Below, one piece after another: positions 56,482-63,732 of a DNA stretch of 64,000 bases. The number at the start of each line of letters is the position of its first letter. Positions within the stretch are counted from its first letter, which is position 1. Under the pieces are notes generated by a model. It was not told the origin of the DNA, made no database searches, and saw nothing but the letters and a program-made list of their open reading frames with translations. This DNA comes from Acidimicrobiia bacterium. GTDB taxonomy: Bacteria; Actinomycetota; Acidimicrobiia; IMCC26256; JAMXLJ01. The translations under genes were made by a program, and so were the position numbers. The DNA is taken from assembly GCA_035651955.1 (NCBI GenBank), contig DASRES010000069.1, positions 62,001 to 126,000 of the forward strand. The letters run 5' to 3'.

Positions 56482-58134
56482 TCAGTGCCCTCCTGCGGTC
56501 GCGGTCGTCGCGGTCGCCTTGGCCCAGCGGTAATCGGGCTTGCCGACGGGAGTCCGCACGATCTCGTCCAGCAGGACGAGCTGGCGCGGCACCTTGTAGC
56601 TCGCGATCTTCGCTCGGCAGTGTGCCTGCACGTCGTCGAGCGACGGGTTCGTCCCCGGTCGGGGCTGCACGATCGCGGCGACCCGCTCGACGAAGCGGTC
56701 GTCGGGTACGCCGACGACGACGGCGTCGAACACGTCGGGATGCGACTTCAGCGCGGCCTCGACCTCCTCGGGGTACACCTTCTCGCCGCCGGTGTTGATG
56801 CACACCGAACCACGGCCCAGCACGGTGATCGTGCCGTCGGCGTCGATCGTGGCGTAGTCGCCGGGGACGACCCAGCGGCGGCCGTCCGCGGCGGTCAGGA
56901 ACGTCGCCGCGGTCTTCTCGTCGTCCTTGTAGTACGCGAGCGGGATGTGTCCCGACCGCGCCAGGCGGCCGACGTCACCCGATCCCGGCACGACGGGGAC
57001 GAGGTCGTCGTCGAGAACGGTCATGAACGGACCCATCGTGAAGCGTGGTCCCGCGGCCGGACCGTCCAGGTCCATCACGCTGCCGCCCGCCCCCGTCTCC
57101 GACGCACCGAAGCTGTCGACGACGACGGCCTGCGGCATCAGCGCGCGCAGCTGGTCCTTCACCGCGCGCGACAGGATTGCTCCCCCGGAGCCGATCGCGA
57201 CGACGTTGCTCGCGTCGTGGTGCTGGTCGGGATCGAGGAGCGCCTCCGCGAGCGGGCGCGCCATCGCGTCGCCGACGACCATGATCGACCGCGCGCCCTC
57301 GCGTTCGGCCATCCGCCAGACCTCGTGCCCGTCGAAGTGGTGCGCGGTGTTGAGGATGGTGGTGTTCCCGGCGAAGAACGCGATGCACGTCACCCACTGG
57401 CCGCCCCCGTGCATCATCGGCGCGTTGCAGATGCTGACCAGCTGCTCACCCTCGGGCGCGACGCGCGTCGCGAGCTCCTCCGGCGTCGTGATCGGCGGCT
57501 TGCCGAACCCGCCGCCACCCATCGCCGCGAAGAAGATGTCCTCGTGGCGCCACACGACACCCTTCGGCATCCCGGTGGTGCCACCCGTGTAGAGGATGTA
57601 CAGGTCGTCGGAGGAGCGGGGCGGGAAGCCCCGCGCGGGTGACGACGCGGCGAGCGCCGCTTCGTACTCCAGCGCGTCGTGCGCGTCCTCGTCAGTGCCG
57701 TCCTCGAGGACGACGAGATGACGCAACTGGGGGACGCCATCGCGGATGTCCGCGACGAGCGGTGCGAACGCGCGCTCGTGGACGAGCGCGACGACATCCG
57801 CGTTGTCGAGGATGTAGCGCGCCTCGTCCGCGACGTAGCGGTAGTTCAGGTTGATCGGGACCGCGCTGATCTTCCACGCCGCGAGCATCGCCTCGACCCA
57901 CTCGGCGCGGTTCCACGAGTAGATCCCGACCTTCTCGCCGCGCACCACGCCCGCGTCCGACAGATGGTGCGCGAGACGGTTCGCCCGCTCGTCGAGGTCG
58001 CGATACGTGAGACGGCGATCACCGGCGACGAGCGCGAGACGGTCGGGGACGGTGTCGGCGACGATCTCGAAGAGGTCCGCGAGGTTGAAGCTGCGGCGCC
58101 CGCGCGCGTCGCCGGCGCCGGGGGAGGTCGGCAC
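56482..58134 (-). CDS. Acyl-CoA synthetase (AMP-forming), second of a tandem pair
   Basis: 550 residues. LYTGGTTGMPKGVVWRHEDI, FGASETGAGG, GSVCINTGGEKVYPEEVE and the C-terminal VRTPVGKPDYRWAK carry the usual motifs; TGGTTGMPKG rather than TSGTTG is a known variant. Resembles the FadD3/FadD19-like groups of actinobacterial cholesterol degradation but cannot be assigned. GTG at 58134 is preferred to a TTG 36 bases earlier. Diverges from a TetR gene; the GAAC/GTTC dyad at 58145-58154 lies 11 bases before its start. Confidence 0.88.
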   Translation of the reverse strand: MPTSPGAGDARGRRSFNLADLFEIVADTVPDRLALVAGDRRLTYRDLDERANRLAHHLSDAGVVRGEKVGIYSWNRAEWVEAMLAAWKISAVPINLNYRYVADEARYILDNADVVALVHERAFAPLVADIRDGVPQLRHLVVLEDGTDEDAHDALEYEAALAASSPARGFPPRSSDDLYILYTGGTTGMPKGVVWRHEDIFFAAMGGGGFGKPPITTPEELATRVAPEGEQLVSICNAPMMHGGGQWVTCIAFFAGNTTILNTAHHFDGHEVWRMAEREGARSIMVVGDAMARPLAEALLDPDQHHDASNVVAIGSGGAILSRAVKDQLRALMPQAVVVDSFGASETGAGGSVMDLDGPAAGPRFTMGPFMTVLDDDLVPVVPGSGDVGRLARSGHIPLAYYKDDEKTAATFLTAADGRRWVVPGDYATIDADGTITVLGRGSVCINTGGEKVYPEEVEAALKSHPDVFDAVVVGVPDDRFVERVAAIVQPRPGTNPSLDDVQAHCRAKIASYKVPRQLVLLDEIVRTPVGKPDYRWAKATATTATAGGH

Positions 58135-58144
58135 GGCGGCAGTA

Positions 58145-58154
58145 GAACACGTTC
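58145..58154. promoter_or_regulatory. Possible operator in the synthetase/TetR divergent promoter
   Basis: GAAC-AC-GTTC: a 4-bp inverted repeat with AAC-N2-GTT centre, similar to the core bound by KstR-type TetR repressors (AAC-N2-GTT). It lies 11 bases before the synthetase start and 62 before the TetR ATG. Short and unproven. Confidence 0.4.
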
Positions 58155-58215
58155 CGTTCCGGCGCGGCAAGGTCTCGCTGACGGCGCGTCAGGTTGCCGG
58201 TTACCCTTGCGCCGA

Positions 58216-58896
58216 ATGGCGATCAGCGCGCAGCCCGACCGCGTCCCAGAGGAGGACGTCCGCGCGACCGACGGCCGGGTTCCCGGGCGTCGCGGCATCG
58301 CGACCCGCCGGCGGTTGCTCGACTGCACGGCGGAGCTCCTCGGCTCGACGTCGTACCGCGACATCAAGGTCATCGACATCGCGCGCGAGGCGGGGACGTC
58401 GCCGGCGACGTTCTACCAGTACTTTCCGGACGTCGAGCAGGCGGTGCTCGTGCTCGCGGAGGAGCTCGCGGCCGACGCCGAACCCATCGTCGAGCTGGTG
58501 AAGGGCGACTGGCGCGGTGAGAAGGGTGCGGCCACCGCGCGCGCCGTGGTGGACGCGTTCCTCGAGTACTACGAGCGCCACCGCGCCGTGTTCCGCGTCG
58601 TCGACCTCGCGACCGGTGAAGGGGATCTCCGGTTCAAGCAGTTGCGCACGCGAGCGCTCGGCGGGATCACCGACGCGCTGTGCGCGGTGATCGGCGAGTT
58701 CCAGCACGACGGGAAGCTCGACGCTGACGTCGACCCGAAGGCGACCGCGTTCATCATGGTCGCGATGCTCGCCCACTCCGCGGCCCACCGGTACGGGTTC
58801 GAGTTCTGGGGCGTGCGCACGTCCGCGCAGGTCGACACGCTGACACGCGTGCTGACGTGGAACGTGACCGGCCGGAAGCCGAGGAAGAGCGGCTGA
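58216..58896 (+). CDS. TetR-family regulator
   Basis: 226 residues. After a ~28-residue basic lead, RRRLLDCTAELLGSTSYRDI and IDIAREAGTSPATFYQYFPD form the TetR DNA-binding domain; the rest is the helical ligand domain. The ATG's stop overlaps the start of the next SDR (TGATG), so the regulator is the first gene of the plus-strand catabolic operon and also diverges from the two synthetase genes. Likely controls both. Confidence 0.9.
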   Translation: MAISAQPDRVPEEDVRATDGRVPGRRGIATRRRLLDCTAELLGSTSYRDIKVIDIAREAGTSPATFYQYFPDVEQAVLVLAEELAADAEPIVELVKGDWRGEKGAATARAVVDAFLEYYERHRAVFRVVDLATGEGDLRFKQLRTRALGGITDALCAVIGEFQHDGKLDADVDPKATAFIMVAMLAHSAAHRYGFEFWGVRTSAQVDTLTRVLTWNVTGRKPRKSG

Positions 58897-59675
58897 TGCT
58901 GCTCGACGGGCGCGTCGCGATCGTCTCGGGGATCGGGCCCGGCATGGGGCGGGACATCTCGCTGACGCTTGCTCGTGAAGGCGCCGACGTCGTCCTCGCC
59001 GCGCGTCGCGAGACGAAGATGCGCGAGGTCGCGGCCGAGGTCGCGGGTCTCGGTCGTCGTGCGGTCTGCGTCCCGACCGACATCACCGACAAGGAGCAGT
59101 GCGGGCGCCTCGTCGCGACCGCGCGCGACGAGCTCGGACGGGTCGACGTCCTCGTGAACAACGCGTTCGCGGAGGAGGACTGGGCGACCTTCAAGGGCTT
59201 CGACCTCGAGCGGTGGCGCGCGCCGTTCGACGTCAACGTGTTCGGAACCCTGCAGCTCAGCCAGGCCGTCGTGCCCGTCATGAAGGCGCAGGGCGCCGGG
59301 TCGATCGTGATGATCAACACGCTGTCGACGCGTGTCGTCAACCCCGTGCTCGGCGGGTACGCGTCGTCGAAGGGCGCGCTGCTCGTCGCCGCGCAGGTCA
59401 TGGCGAAGGAGCTCGGCGCGTACGGCATCCGCGTGAACTCGGTCGCCCCGGGCCACATCTGGGGGGACTCGCTGAAGCACTACTTCGAGCACCTGGCGCG
59501 CCAACGGGGCGTCACGCCCCAGGACGTCTACGACGACATCGCGGGGCAGACCGCGCTGCACCACATCCCGACCTCCGAGGAGATCTCTCGCGCGGTGCTG
59601 TTCTTCGCGTCCGATCTGTCGCGCGTCATCACCGGGCAGACGCTCGACGTGAACGCCGGCCGCGTCTTCCACTGA
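58896..59675 (+). CDS. Short-chain dehydrogenase/reductase
   Basis: 259 residues. Cofactor motif SGIGPGMGRDI, NNAF in place of NNAG, and YASSK with preceding INTLSTR are present. VAPGHIWGDSLKHYFEHLAR is a distinctive substrate loop shared with the next gene's product. Paralog of the adjacent SDR (59683-60462), suggesting a tandem duplication with related substrates. ATG coupled to the TetR stop. Confidence 0.88.
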   Translation: MLLDGRVAIVSGIGPGMGRDISLTLAREGADVVLAARRETKMREVAAEVAGLGRRAVCVPTDITDKEQCGRLVATARDELGRVDVLVNNAFAEEDWATFKGFDLERWRAPFDVNVFGTLQLSQAVVPVMKAQGAGSIVMINTLSTRVVNPVLGGYASSKGALLVAAQVMAKELGAYGIRVNSVAPGHIWGDSLKHYFEHLARQRGVTPQDVYDDIAGQTALHHIPTSEEISRAVLFFASDLSRVITGQTLDVNAGRVFH

Positions 59676-59682
59676 GGCTGCC

Positions 59683-60462
59683 GTGCTGCTGAAGGACAAG
59701 ACCGCGATCGTCTCCGGTGTCGGGCCCGGGCTCGGCAAGGAGGTCGCGCTCGCGTTCGTCCGCGAAGGCGCGTCCGTCGTCATCGGCGCGCGGCGCGAGT
59801 CGTACCTGCGAGAGGTCGCGGCCGAGCTCGAGGCGCTCGGTGGCACGGTGCGCTACGTCCCGACCGACGTGTCCGATCCCGACCAGTGCCGGCGCATGGT
59901 CGACGTCACGCTCGACGAGCTCGGCCGTGTCGACGTGCTCGTGAACAACGCCTTCGCGCCCGACGTGTTCCAGCCCTTCGACTCGGTCGACCTCGACGCG
60001 TGGCGTCACATCATGGACGTCAACCTGTTCGGCTCGCTGCAGCTCACCGGCGAGGTGATCGAGCCGATGAAGGCCGCGGGCGGCGGCTCGATCGTGTTCG
60101 TGAACTCGATGATCACCCGCAAGGTCCTGCCGCTGCAGGGCGGGTACGCGACCTCGAAGGGCGCGCTGCTCACCGCCGCGCAGGTGCTCGCGAAGGAGCT
60201 CGGCCCGCACCGGATCCGGGTGAACTCCGTCGTGCCCGGATACATGTGGGGGCCCTCGGTCGAGATCTACCTGAAGATCCTGGAACAGCAGGACGGCCGG
60301 CCCGCGCAGGAGCACTACGACGAGATCGCGTCGCACATCCCGCTCGGGTTCATCCCGCCCGACGAGGACTGCGCCAACGCCGTGGTGTTCTTCGCCTCCG
60401 ACCTGTCCGCCGTCGTCACGGGCCAGTCGCTCGACGTGAACGGCGGCGAGGTGTTTCACTGA
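59683..60462 (+). CDS. Short-chain dehydrogenase/reductase, paralog of the preceding gene
   Basis: 259 residues, same length as its neighbour. SGVGPGLGKEVAL, NNAFAPD and YATSK are in place, as is VPGYMWGPSVEIYLKILEQQ, matching the HIWGDS loop of the upstream paralog. GTG start 7 bases after the upstream stop. Its TGA begins the spacer repeat at 60460-60533. Confidence 0.88.
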   Translation: MLLKDKTAIVSGVGPGLGKEVALAFVREGASVVIGARRESYLREVAAELEALGGTVRYVPTDVSDPDQCRRMVDVTLDELGRVDVLVNNAFAPDVFQPFDSVDLDAWRHIMDVNLFGSLQLTGEVIEPMKAAGGGSIVFVNSMITRKVLPLQGGYATSKGALLTAAQVLAKELGPHRIRVNSVVPGYMWGPSVEIYLKILEQQDGRPAQEHYDEIASHIPLGFIPPDEDCANAVVFFASDLSAVVTGQSLDVNGGEVFH

Positions 60463-60533
60463 GCGAGCGAGCCGAGAGGCGAGCGGAAGCGTGGCCGAGC
60501 GGCCCGGCGCCGAAGGCGCCAAGAGCGGAGAAA
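60460..60533 (+). repeat. GC-rich stop-to-start spacer repeat, copy B
   Basis: A 74-base spacer from the stop codon TGAGCGAGCG to just before CTG at 60534. It shares with copy A (39646-39730) the blocks TGAGCGAGCG, GAGGCG, AGCGTGGCC, CGGCCCGGCGC, GAAG and GCGCC. The hairpin GGCGCC-GAA-GGCGCC (60506-60520) corresponds to the GGCGC-GAA-GCGCC hairpin of copy A. Confidence 0.65.
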
Positions 60534-61814
60534 CTGAATCGACCGGAGAGCGTCGACTACGCGGCGAACCTGCTGCGGCTGGTCGGGCTCGACATGCCCG
60601 TCGACGGGCCGCCCGATCCCGGCCCGGCCGACGACTGGGCCGCGTCGGGTGCGATGTTCCTGACCGGCGAGGCCGACGGCCCGCCCCGCGTGCTCCGCGG
60701 GCCGGTGTGCGCGCGGCTGCGTGGTTGCGCGCTCGCACTGCACGCGCTCAGCGGCGGTGCCGTCGCCGTCGACGGACCCGCGCTGCTCGGCGAGCGCGCC
60801 GCGATCGCGCACCTCGGGAGGAACGGGACGACCTCACCCGGCGGCAGCTGTCGCCTGCTCCAGGCGCGCGACGGCTGGATCGCGGTCAACCTCGCGCGAC
60901 GCGACGACTTCGCGATGCTGCCCGCGTTGCTCGCGCGCGAGCTCGCCGGGGATCCGTGGGCCGCGCTCGAGAACCACGTCGCGACGCACGGCGCCGAGGA
61001 GGTCGTCACGCGTGCGCAGCTCCTCGGCGTCCCGGCCGCGGTCGTCGCGCCGCCGCGCGACGGAGCCCCACCGTTCGCCGTGACGCGCGGAGCACGGCGT
61101 CGGCGGCGCGATCCACCGCTCGTCGTCGACCTGTCAGCACTGTGGGCCGGGCCGCTGTGCACGAGTCTCCTCGGTCTTGCCGGCTGCGACGTCGTGAAGG
61201 TCGAGAGCCGGGCACGTCCTGACGGCGCCCGGCGCGGACCACCGGCGTTCTTCGACCTGATGAACGCGGGCAAGCGCAGCGTCTGCGTCGAGCTCGGGAC
61301 GCCCGCCTGGCGGGCGCTGGTCGAGGCGGCCGACGTCGTCGTCGAGAGCTCGCGCCCGCGCGTGATGGAACAGGCCGGCGTCGACGTCGGCGCGCTCGTC
61401 GCGCGCGGCACCGTGTGGGTCTCGTTCACCGGGTACGGGCGTGGCGGCGACTGGCGCGACCGCGTCGCGTTCGGTGACGACGCCGCAGCCGCGGGGGGCG
61501 CGTGCGCGCTCCTCGCCGGTGACGACGGCGTGCCGATGATCTGTGCCGATGCCTTCGGCGATCCCGTCGCCGGGCTCCACGGCGCAGTCGCCGCACTCGC
61601 CTGTCTCTCGGACGGCCGGGGCGCGCTCGTCGACGTCTCGCTTCGTGATGCCGTCTCCGCCGTGCTCGCGGGCGGACGATCGGACGCTGCGGTCGCCCAC
61701 GTACCCGTCGAGGTCGCGCCACCGCGCGCGCGACCGTCGCCCGGTCGCGGGCCGGCGCTCGGCGCGCACACGGAGGACGTTCTGGCGCAGCTCGGGTTCC
61801 AACGGGTGGAATAG
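60534..61814 (+). CDS. Family III CoA transferase (CaiB/BaiF type), possible CTG start
   Basis: 426 residues if started at CTG 60534. WAASGAMFLTGEADGPP and CRLLQARDGWIAVNLARRDD precede LVVDLSALWAGPLCTSLLGL (CoA-binding family motif) and FFDLMNAGKRSVCVEL, the order seen in a subfamily of actinobacterial CoA transferases. The segment before WAASG (SVDYAANLLRLVGLD) looks coding, yet the first ATG is at 60594 inside it and no GTG or TTG exists upstream. CTG 60534 aligns with the ATG that follows copy A of the spacer repeat, supporting it. It would move CoA between carboxylic acids. Confidence 0.82.
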   Translation: MNRPESVDYAANLLRLVGLDMPVDGPPDPGPADDWAASGAMFLTGEADGPPRVLRGPVCARLRGCALALHALSGGAVAVDGPALLGERAAIAHLGRNGTTSPGGSCRLLQARDGWIAVNLARRDDFAMLPALLARELAGDPWAALENHVATHGAEEVVTRAQLLGVPAAVVAPPRDGAPPFAVTRGARRRRRDPPLVVDLSALWAGPLCTSLLGLAGCDVVKVESRARPDGARRGPPAFFDLMNAGKRSVCVELGTPAWRALVEAADVVVESSRPRVMEQAGVDVGALVARGTVWVSFTGYGRGGDWRDRVAFGDDAAAAGGACALLAGDDGVPMICADAFGDPVAGLHGAVAALACLSDGRGALVDVSLRDAVSAVLAGGRSDAAVAHVPVEVAPPRARPSPGRGPALGAHTEDVLAQLGFQRVE

Positions 61815-61818
61815 GCGC

Positions 61819-62301
61819 GTGGCGCGGATCCGCATCCCCGACGGGGACGACCCCGAGATCGTCCGAGTGTGGTCGCTGCAACCGGAGATGTCCGCGGCCC
61901 TGAACGCGCTGACGGACGCCGTGCACAACAAGAGCATCCTGCCGCCCCGCGAACGCGAATGCGTGCGGATGCGGATCGCGCAGATCAACGACTGCCCGAT
62001 ATGACTGGGCTGGCGCGTCGCGTCGTTGGCGCGACACGGGGTCACCGAGGAGATGTATGCGCACGTCGCGGACGCGCACGAGCGTGACGACTACACGGCT
62101 CGTGAGAAGCTCGCCATCGAGTACGCCGAGCGGTTCGCGCTCGACCACCTCGACCTCGACGACGAGTTCTTCGTGACGCTCCGCGAGCACTTCAGCGACG
62201 CCGAGATCCTCGACCTCACGATCGTCATCGGCGACTACCTCGCGTTCGGCCGCCTCACGCAGGTCCTGAAGCTCGACCAGTCGTGCAGCCTTGACGGCTG
62301 A
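61819..62301 (+). CDS. AhpD/carboxymuconolactone-decarboxylase-like protein with in-frame TGA; candidate CxxU selenoprotein
   Basis: 160 residues if TGA 62002-62004 is decoded. The protein has the AhpD-like layout: LPPRERECVRMRIAQIND, then the redox motif C59-P-I-[TGA62], then LGWRVASLARHGVTEEM and the helical C-terminus FVTLREHFSDAEILDLTIVI. The stop falls exactly on the second cysteine of CxxC, and the same frame continues 99 codons to 62301. AhpD-like CxxU selenoproteins are a known group. An 8-bp hairpin with a GUU loop follows (62017-62035). The codon before is ATA, rare here, so a two-base change from ATC TGC is the main alternative (pseudogene or error). GTG start 4 bases after the CoA transferase stop. 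Confidence 0.68.
62002..62035 (+). promoter_or_regulatory. Candidate bacterial SECIS element after TGA
   Basis: The TGA is followed after 12 bases by GTCGCGTC-GTT-GGCGCGAC (62017-62035): eight pairs including one U-G, with apical loop GUU. The distance from TGA to the loop is 20 bases, inside the 16-37 range used for bacterial SECIS elements, and a G leads the loop as SelB recognition requires. An outer TGAC/GTCA pairing (62002-62005 with 62041-62044) is possible. GC-rich coding DNA makes chance stems common. Confidence 0.5.
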
Positions 62302-62974
62302 CGGTCGGGAGCTCGCGGGGCTCGCCGCGCTCGTCACCGGCGTCGACCGCCCCATCGGGGACGGGCTCGCCCGCGCGCTCGCCGACGCGGGCGCGACCGT
62401 CGCGGTGCGCGGTAGCCATCTCGACCCCGTCGACAACGTCTTCGCCACGGCGCGCGACGAGCTGGGCGCGGACGTCGACGTCGTCGTCCACGCCGCGCTG
62501 CCGCCCGGCGCCGCGGAACTGCTCGCGTTCGAAGAGGTGACCGACGAGCGTTGGGAAACCGTCTGGGAGCGCGGGATGCGCACGACCCTGGCGCTGCTGC
62601 AGGGTGCGTTCCCCGCGATGCGCGAACGTGGTCGCGGCCGGTTCGTGTTCGTGTCGCCGACACTGTCGATGTCGGGCGCGCCGGGCTTGGTCCCGCTCAC
62701 CGCGTACGTCGAGGGCCAGCGACTGCTCGCGAAGTCGGCGGCACGCCAGTGGGGTCCGTACGGCATCACCGTGAACTGCGTCGCGCCCGCGCCCGAGCTC
62801 GCGGTGGCGGGAACTGCCGCGGGCGCGGTGTCGCTCGCGGCCCCCGCCCTCGGCGGCCCCGGCGACGCGCGTGACGACCTGGGGCCGGTGGTCACGTTCC
62901 TCGCGTCGGACGCCGCGCACTTCGTGACGGGCGTGACCGTCTGTGCCGACGGCGGTGTGTGGATGGCGCCGTGA
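62291..62974 (+). CDS. Degenerate short-chain dehydrogenase/reductase
   Basis: 227 residues from a TTG that overlaps the preceding gene by 11 bases. The SDR fold is evident (LAALVTGVDRPIGDGLARAL; VSPTLSMSGAPGLVPLTAYV; CVAPAPELAVAG; VTFLASDAAHFVTGVTVCAD), but the Gly-rich loop reads TGVDRPIG, NNAG is replaced by VHAAL, and the catalytic Lys of YxxxK is Gln143 (Tyr139 and Ser126 stay). Shorter than its neighbours. Possibly an inactive partner of the following intact SDR, or a hydratase-like relative. Confidence 0.82.
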   Translation: MTADGRELAGLAALVTGVDRPIGDGLARALADAGATVAVRGSHLDPVDNVFATARDELGADVDVVVHAALPPGAAELLAFEEVTDERWETVWERGMRTTLALLQGAFPAMRERGRGRFVFVSPTLSMSGAPGLVPLTAYVEGQRLLAKSAARQWGPYGITVNCVAPAPELAVAGTAAGAVSLAAPALGGPGDARDDLGPVVTFLASDAAHFVTGVTVCADGGVWMAP

Positions 62975-63732
62975 CGCTCGACGGTCGCGTCGCGATCGTG
63001 ACGGGCGCCGGGCAAGGGGTCGGTCGGGGCATCGCGCTCGCGCTCGCGGCCCGTGGCGCGCGCGTCGTGATCGCGGCACGGCGCGCGGAGACCGGCGATC
63101 CCGTCGCGCGGGAGATCTCGGAGCGCGGAGGCGAGGCCGAGTGCATCGTGACGGACGTGACACGCCGCGACGACGTCGAGCGGTGCGTCGACGCGACCGT
63201 CCGGCGGTTCGGCGCGCTGCACGTCATGGTCCACAACGCGTACGCCGGTGGCATCGCGCACCGCTTGGAGGACGTCGGCGCCGAGCTCTGGGAGCAGAGC
63301 TCGAGGACCGCCGTCTGGGGCTCGTTCTACTGCGCGCAGCTCGCGTTCCCGCACCTGCGGGATGCGGGCGCGCGCGGCCGGTTGGTCCTCGTCACCTCCC
63401 CGGCGGGCGTCGAGGGGAGCGCGAACATCCCGCTGTACGCGCCGGTGAAGGCCGCGCAACGTGCGATGTCGAAGAGCCTGGCGCGCGAGTGGGGTCGGTA
63501 CGGGATCACGGTGAACTGCATCGCACCGGTCGCGGAGACGCCCGCGCTCGCGCGCGCGTTCGAGCTCACCCCGGAGCTGAAGGGCCGGCTCGAGGCGCGC
63601 ACGCCACTCGGCCGCGTCGGCGACGCCGAGCGCGACGTCGGCGGTGTCGTCGCGTTCCTCGCGTCGGACGACGCCGGCTACGTCACCGCGCAGACGATCG
63701 TCTGCGACGGCGGCAGCTTCACCGGGTTGTGA
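62971..63732 (+). CDS. Short-chain dehydrogenase/reductase
   Basis: 253 residues. TGAGQGVGRGIALAL, HNAYAGG (NNAG variant), TSPAGVEGSANIPLYAPVK with intact Y and K, and the CIAPVAETPALARAF loop are visible. The GTG overlaps the degenerate SDR's stop (GTGA), so the two are translated together and may form a heteromer. A GTG 12 bases upstream is an alternative. Last gene of the plus-strand catabolic operon, followed by a terminator. Confidence 0.88.
   Translation: MTLDGRVAIVTGAGQGVGRGIALALAARGARVVIAARRAETGDPVAREISERGGEAECIVTDVTRRDDVERCVDATVRRFGALHVMVHNAYAGGIAHRLEDVGAELWEQSSRTAVWGSFYCAQLAFPHLRDAGARGRLVLVTSPAGVEGSANIPLYAPVKAAQRAMSKSLAREWGRYGITVNCIAPVAETPALARAFELTPELKGRLEARTPLGRVGDAERDVGGVVAFLASDDAGYVTAQTIVCDGGSFTGL

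Follow-up and report, generated by a model that had tools for sequence, protein, structure and literature searches.

A putative AhpD/CMD-like CxxU selenoprotein in a conserved gene cluster of an uncultured Acidimicrobiia bacterium

AhpD-like proteins with a CxxU motif, which the first-pass annotation of this locus had named as occurring among bacterial selenoproteins, were indeed described in 2005-2008: the AhpD-like 2 and CMD-like types (pfam02627) were found in the GOS and Sargasso Sea surveys (PMC2398784, PMC1088965), and CMD-like CxxU selenoproteins are also listed in a 2026 review (PMC13188914). The published rules for the bacterial SECIS element (bSECIS) call for a G in the first two loop positions and a spacing of 16-37 nt (PMC13188914). 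In AhpD of M. tuberculosis, a two-helix motif with a Glu and a CxxC is conserved (PMC3141380). No paper on selenoproteins of Acidimicrobiia was found in searches of an open-access full-text library.

In this study, we analysed a stretch of 64,000 nucleotides (hereafter, the window) from an uncultured Acidimicrobiia bacterium, a soil actinobacterium. The gene under study (Table 1) was noticed in the first-pass annotation as a 160-codon frame of an AhpD/CMD-like protein, open except for one TGA at the second Cys of a C-P-I-x motif, with family sequence in one frame on both sides and a place in a compact operon. Each of these observations was confirmed. The internal TGA is in frame with the GTG start and the terminal TGA, no other stop was found within the 160 codons, and the orthologues have equivalent start and end positions. 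The codons of the motif are TGC CCG ATA TGA, the last one standing for the second Cys of the CxxC of the family. The Pfam CMD profile PF02627 matched residues 22-104 with 42.3 bits (cut-off 23) and consequently spans the TGA at residue 62; the score for TIGR00778 (ahpD_dom) was also above its cut-off (28.5 against 27.8 bits). Between the TAG stop of a CoA-transferase gene, its operon partner in relatives as well, and the GTG start of the gene lie 4 nt; at its other end, the gene shares 11 nt with the next SDR frame.

Table 1 Features of the putative selenoprotein gene and its surroundings in the window. G001 is the sister genome of the window's genome.
Feature	Position	Strand	Remarks
Acyl-CoA synthetase, divergent (AMP-binding; NF005863, 736 bits)	56482..58170	-	79% identical in G001
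Frame with TetR-family regulator	57679..58896	+	TetR_N, TetR_C_38 at frame residues 213-403; 83% identical in G001
SDR dehydrogenase, first of two upstream	58857..59675	+	profile matches, relatives' clusters
SDR dehydrogenase, second of two upstream	59683..60462	+	profile matches, relatives' clusters
Upstream frame with CoA-transferase family III gene (PF02515)	59886..61814	+	homologous part from near 60549
CDS, putative AhpD/CMD-like selenoprotein	61819..62301	+	GTG start; terminal TGA 62299-62301; internal TGA, predicted Sec at residue 62
TGC, Cys59, CxxU residue 1	61993..61995	+	invariant in A2 and A4
TGA, predicted Sec62, CxxU residue 2	62002..62004	+	homologue column TGA 28, TGC/TGT 88, GAG 1 (n=117)
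Bacterial SECIS-type hairpin	62017..62035	+	stem 62017-62024 GTCGCGTC with 62028-62035 GGCGCGAC; loop GUU 62025-62027
SDR dehydrogenase	62291..62974	+	overlaps selenoprotein 3' end
SDR dehydrogenase	62959..63732	+	70-85% identical in relatives with same cluster

The locus resembles the AhpD-like 2 and CMD-like selenoproteins of the two surveys in its PF02627 match, in the expected Sec as the second residue of CxxU and in a bacterial SECIS-type element just downstream. Compared by description, it differs from those lists, which consist mostly of metagenome reads, in that its subfamily is tied to Acidimicrobiia genomes and to a defined cluster. The best NCBIfam match of the protein was NF053654 (GroundWater_YciW, YciW-related (seleno)protein), a CMD relative of the selenoprotein type; since the score of 57 bits is far under the curated cut-off of 310, the protein is not a member of that family. 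No NCBIfam equivalog matched the subfamily.

Subsequently, the read-through protein was compared with known structures. The AlphaFold2 model (pLDDT 92.5) has a helix from residue 60, and its best matches in the PDB were the AhpD-like proteins Atu0492 and PA0269 (2IJC, 2O4D, 7XW1, 2GMY; TM 0.70-0.74). The protein is thus predicted to adopt the all-helical AhpD fold with the CxxC/CxxU pair at the start of a helix. PA0269 and Atu0492, which are about 25% identical to it, carry their CxxC at the same place, but have Cys where the window protein has the predicted Sec. M. tuberculosis AhpD was a weak fold match (E about 0.1); Glu47 of the window protein precedes Cys59 by 12 residues, which is also the spacing of Glu118 and Cys130 in that enzyme. 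Glu47, Cys59 and positions 62 and 66 match the Glu-Cys-Cys-His relay of AhpD (PMC3141380). The relay His, which stands four residues past the second Cys in PA0269 and Atu0492 and is His137 in M. tuberculosis AhpD, was absent from all 107 close homologues, where this position, Arg66 in the window protein, is Arg in both the Cys forms (83/83) and the Sec forms (24/24). This replacement suggests that classical AhpD chemistry may not apply. Judging from these residues, the protein would work like a CxxC/CxxU redox protein, and the strict AhpD relay is not reproduced.

Where AhpD has its CxxC, Cys59 and Sec62 would make up a C-x-x-U redox pair, and the protein is most likely a selenol/thiol oxidoreductase. 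Sec62 would attack a peroxide or a disulfide-like substrate, Cys59 would resolve the intermediate, and some electron donor would then recycle the pair. The enzyme probably serves the genes around it, which are arranged as acyl-CoA synthetase / TetR / SDR / SDR / CoA-transferase / AhpD-like / SDR / SDR. Parts of this cluster were found both in relatives with the Sec form (L084, L085, L088, L092) and in relatives with the Cys form (L086, L087, L089, L094). In several of these relatives a P450 gene follows the AhpD-like gene; it is missing in the window. Such a conserved set of acyl-CoA, short-chain-dehydrogenase, CoA-transferase and, in some cases, P450 genes points to a catabolic pathway. One Cys-form sequence, L086 (CAMDCC010000097.1), is titled Bifidobacterium breve; it has the Acidimicrobiia-type cluster, coincides by position with G042 of the window's order and is probably a mislabelled MAG.

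The cluster also bears on a different view of the function, in which the selenoprotein is not a peroxide or disulfide oxidoreductase but a substrate-specific enzyme belonging to the cluster, such as a reductase or a reductive dehalogenase. The two views agree on Sec decoding and differ in function only. A conserved catabolic-type neighbourhood with a CoA ligase, a CoA-transferase, four SDRs and, in relatives, a P450 fits such an enzyme, as do the invariant Arg in place of the relay His and the presence of the CMD-fold debrominase Bmp8 among the fold matches (E 5.8e-4). Bmp8 is, however, only 16% identical, and the closest matches in both fold and sequence are AhpD-like peroxidase-related proteins; hence we regard the substrate-specific enzyme as rather unlikely and favour the selenol/thiol oxidoreductase.

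To return to the TGA itself, 58 genomes of the same order and a set of named genomes were searched for homologues, and 117 distinct homologous stretches were obtained. A search of the named-genome contigs with the single protein gave no match, and an alignment-based search gave 80 loci. The alignment of homologues proposed in the first-pass annotation revealed a Cys codon or TGA at the residue-62 column, with one exception (Table 1), and no decay: no other premature stop was present in 18,102 codons, one extra TGA being a terminal stop. With 28 of the 117 homologues sharing the column and none having another premature stop, the occurrence of TGA there exceeds chance. The first-pass annotation had also cautioned that the preceding codon, ATA, is rare, so that two adjacent third-base changes might account for the TGA. 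This caution was not upheld, as two other genomes likewise have ATA directly before the TGA, and further TGA copies have ATC, GTC and other codons at this position. The base directly 3' of the UGA was C in 24/24 close Sec copies. All mycobacterial relatives found had Cys at this codon. At least seven changes between the Sec and Cys states were counted on the protein tree, many branches of which are weakly supported.

A hairpin was located downstream of the TGA. That of the window gene consists of 8 bp and a GUU loop, starts 12 nt past the TGA, places the loop 20 nt from the UGA and has an energy of -15.6 kcal/mol; it satisfies the published bSECIS rules (PMC13188914). In most TGA copies the hairpin starts 12-13 nt past the UGA. 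The stem scores of 14 Sec homologues were higher than those of 39 Cys homologues (Mann-Whitney p = 2.9e-7), and in a synonymous-codon control p < 0.05 was reached by 9/14 Sec and 0/39 Cys homologues. For the window gene alone, synonymous recoding gave p = 0.11, so that its hairpin is not extreme; this is because the region is very GC-rich, and the case for the hairpin rests on the family. The 71-nt fold around the TGA gave z = 0.01. Since folding the whole 71-nt stretch hides a local hairpin, the analysis turned to comparison within the family and to covariation. When 20 TGA genes were aligned without gaps, 91% of the cells pair and 5/8 pairs have changed on both sides. The covariation was 0.474, a score that 0/500 shuffles reached, compared with 0.203 after shuffling, and slid registers gave at most 0.13 and all failed. 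These comparisons indicate a hairpin that covaries across the TGA copies and is missing from the Cys homologues. A SECIS model (R1) scored 55.9 bits at the hairpin of the window gene, which is one of its training sequences, and 10.9 bits at the next best site in the window. Across the genome it found only the two close paralogues; weaker matches of 16-19 bits were without a credible selenoprotein frame. R1 is too family-specific to pick up the elements of the formate dehydrogenase (FDH) or C49 genes described below.

The window's genome is a draft of 4.1 Mb in 92 contigs and is 96% complete. When it was searched for selA, selB, selC and selD, as the first-pass annotation had advised, all four were present with matches above the curated cut-offs: tRNA-Sec at C54:23866-23955 (67.9 bits; ARAGORN tRNA-SeC, anticodon TCA), selB on C72 (334 bits with its second stretch), adjoined by selA at C72:40761-42065 (468 bits), and selD on C88 (401 bits). 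TGA copies and Sec machinery co-occurred in 9/9 genomes; the association was of no more than marginal significance (Fisher p = 0.066), since the machinery is also present in many genomes with Cys copies alone, and was not counted as main evidence. The selD genes of G002:C72, G017:C418, G054:C218 and G056:C10 each contain one in-frame TGA, and SelD is therefore probably a selenoprotein in those four genomes.

The genome also holds an internal control. A formate dehydrogenase alpha-like gene (G000:C84:3843 onward, L192) has a single in-frame TGA at NQARI-U-HSSTVPSL, which is the classic position of selenocysteine in FDH. The hairpin of this gene, GUCCCC-AGUUU-GGGGAC, is found at almost the same distance from the TGA as those of the AhpD-like genes, and its loop start AGUU also occurs in several AhpD-like copies. 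The same arrangement was observed in the sister genome (G001:C142, L193).

UGA read-through is common in some bacteria, and UGA followed by C is a leaky context. It might thus be supposed that a genome-wide code change or generic readthrough inserts Cys or Trp at this codon instead of Sec. However, TGA is the terminal codon of the window gene and of six frames near it, and UGA is still a stop in the window's genome. Moreover, internal TGA was confined, among the families examined, to CxxC-type redox genes and FDH, and the genome has tRNA-Sec, selA, selB and selD together with a covarying hairpin specific to the TGA copies, so that this explanation is very improbable. The chance that the gene is a pseudogene, in which the TGA truly ends translation and the sequence beyond it is decaying, seems to us equally slight. 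The TGA is physically present, and many relatives do have an intact CxxC gene; nevertheless, 28 homologues retain the codon, as do the three paralogues that this genome carries and assemblies of independent origin, the gene lies within a conserved cluster, and no further lesions were found. After the TGA, the window gene and its G001 counterpart share 71/91 identical residues, with dN 0.147 and dS 0.49, which indicates that purifying selection at the protein level goes on past it. The conservation of the TGA column refutes the pseudogene reading, which was rejected. A sequencing or assembly error might be suspected in a draft of 92 contigs, but it is practically negligible, since the same TGA is found in the independent assemblies G001, G014, G031, G033, G035, G041, G054 and G057 and in named MAGs, and unrelated MAGs share the codon and column with a matching hairpin that the Cys homologues lack. 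The use of UGA as a stop, combined with selection past the TGA, disfavours all three of these explanations.

Further AhpD-like TGA genes were observed. The window's genome has three, the window gene included. The second is located about 24 kb downstream (G000:C69:147454-147912, minus strand; L020, L071); it is about 58-60% identical and has TGA in the same column and a 9-bp hairpin with a GUU loop. The third, a divergent gene (CGLU-RNLR) at G000:C49:427-801 (L023, L073), has its own hairpin and adjoins a second CMD-like frame; its counterpart is in G001:C19 (L022, L074). Two AhpD-like TGA genes also lie about 3 kb apart on one contig (L088:1706-2170 and L088:5271-5666) with P450 and SDR genes between them, possibly a double-selenoprotein cluster.

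Taken together, the machinery, the homologue codons, the covarying hairpin, the paralogues, the formate dehydrogenase, the selection after the TGA and the modelled fold support the selenocysteine reading of the first-pass annotation, and it is almost certain that the TGA stands for selenocysteine in a redox active site. On this comparative basis, we are highly confident that the gene encodes a 160-residue AhpD-fold selenoprotein, in which the UGA would be read as Sec by the SelA, SelB, SelD and tRNA-Sec of the genome itself, directed by the SECIS hairpin inside the reading frame, and which is likely an oxidoreductase serving the cluster. That this is a real selenoprotein is well supported; its AhpD/CMD-like CxxU kind was already known, and the distribution of Sec and Cys in the operon is of interest.

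An annotation program that takes TGA for a stop would break this gene and its related copies in two, or miss them. Together, the three AhpD-like genes and the formate dehydrogenase make up a small selenoproteome in this lineage of soil Acidimicrobiia. In family f16, close relatives have Cys or Sec versions (G036, G039, G040 and G042 vs G031, G033, G035 and G041), several of them in the same cluster, and these are natural pairs for the study of Sec/Cys exchange. As the same operon has Sec in some genomes and Cys in others, the advantage of selenium becomes testable in matched pairs. We tentatively suggest, as a possibility that is on the whole doubtful, that the proteins of this subfamily, with CxxU/CxxC and Arg at +4 throughout, are not general peroxide-defence AhpDs but substrate-specific selenoenzymes, or redox partners, dedicated to a conserved catabolic pathway of Acidimicrobiia with CoA ligase, CoA-transferase, SDRs and P450, and that their Sec and Cys forms swap repeatedly within the operon. 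If so, this swapping would be a natural test of the contribution of selenium.
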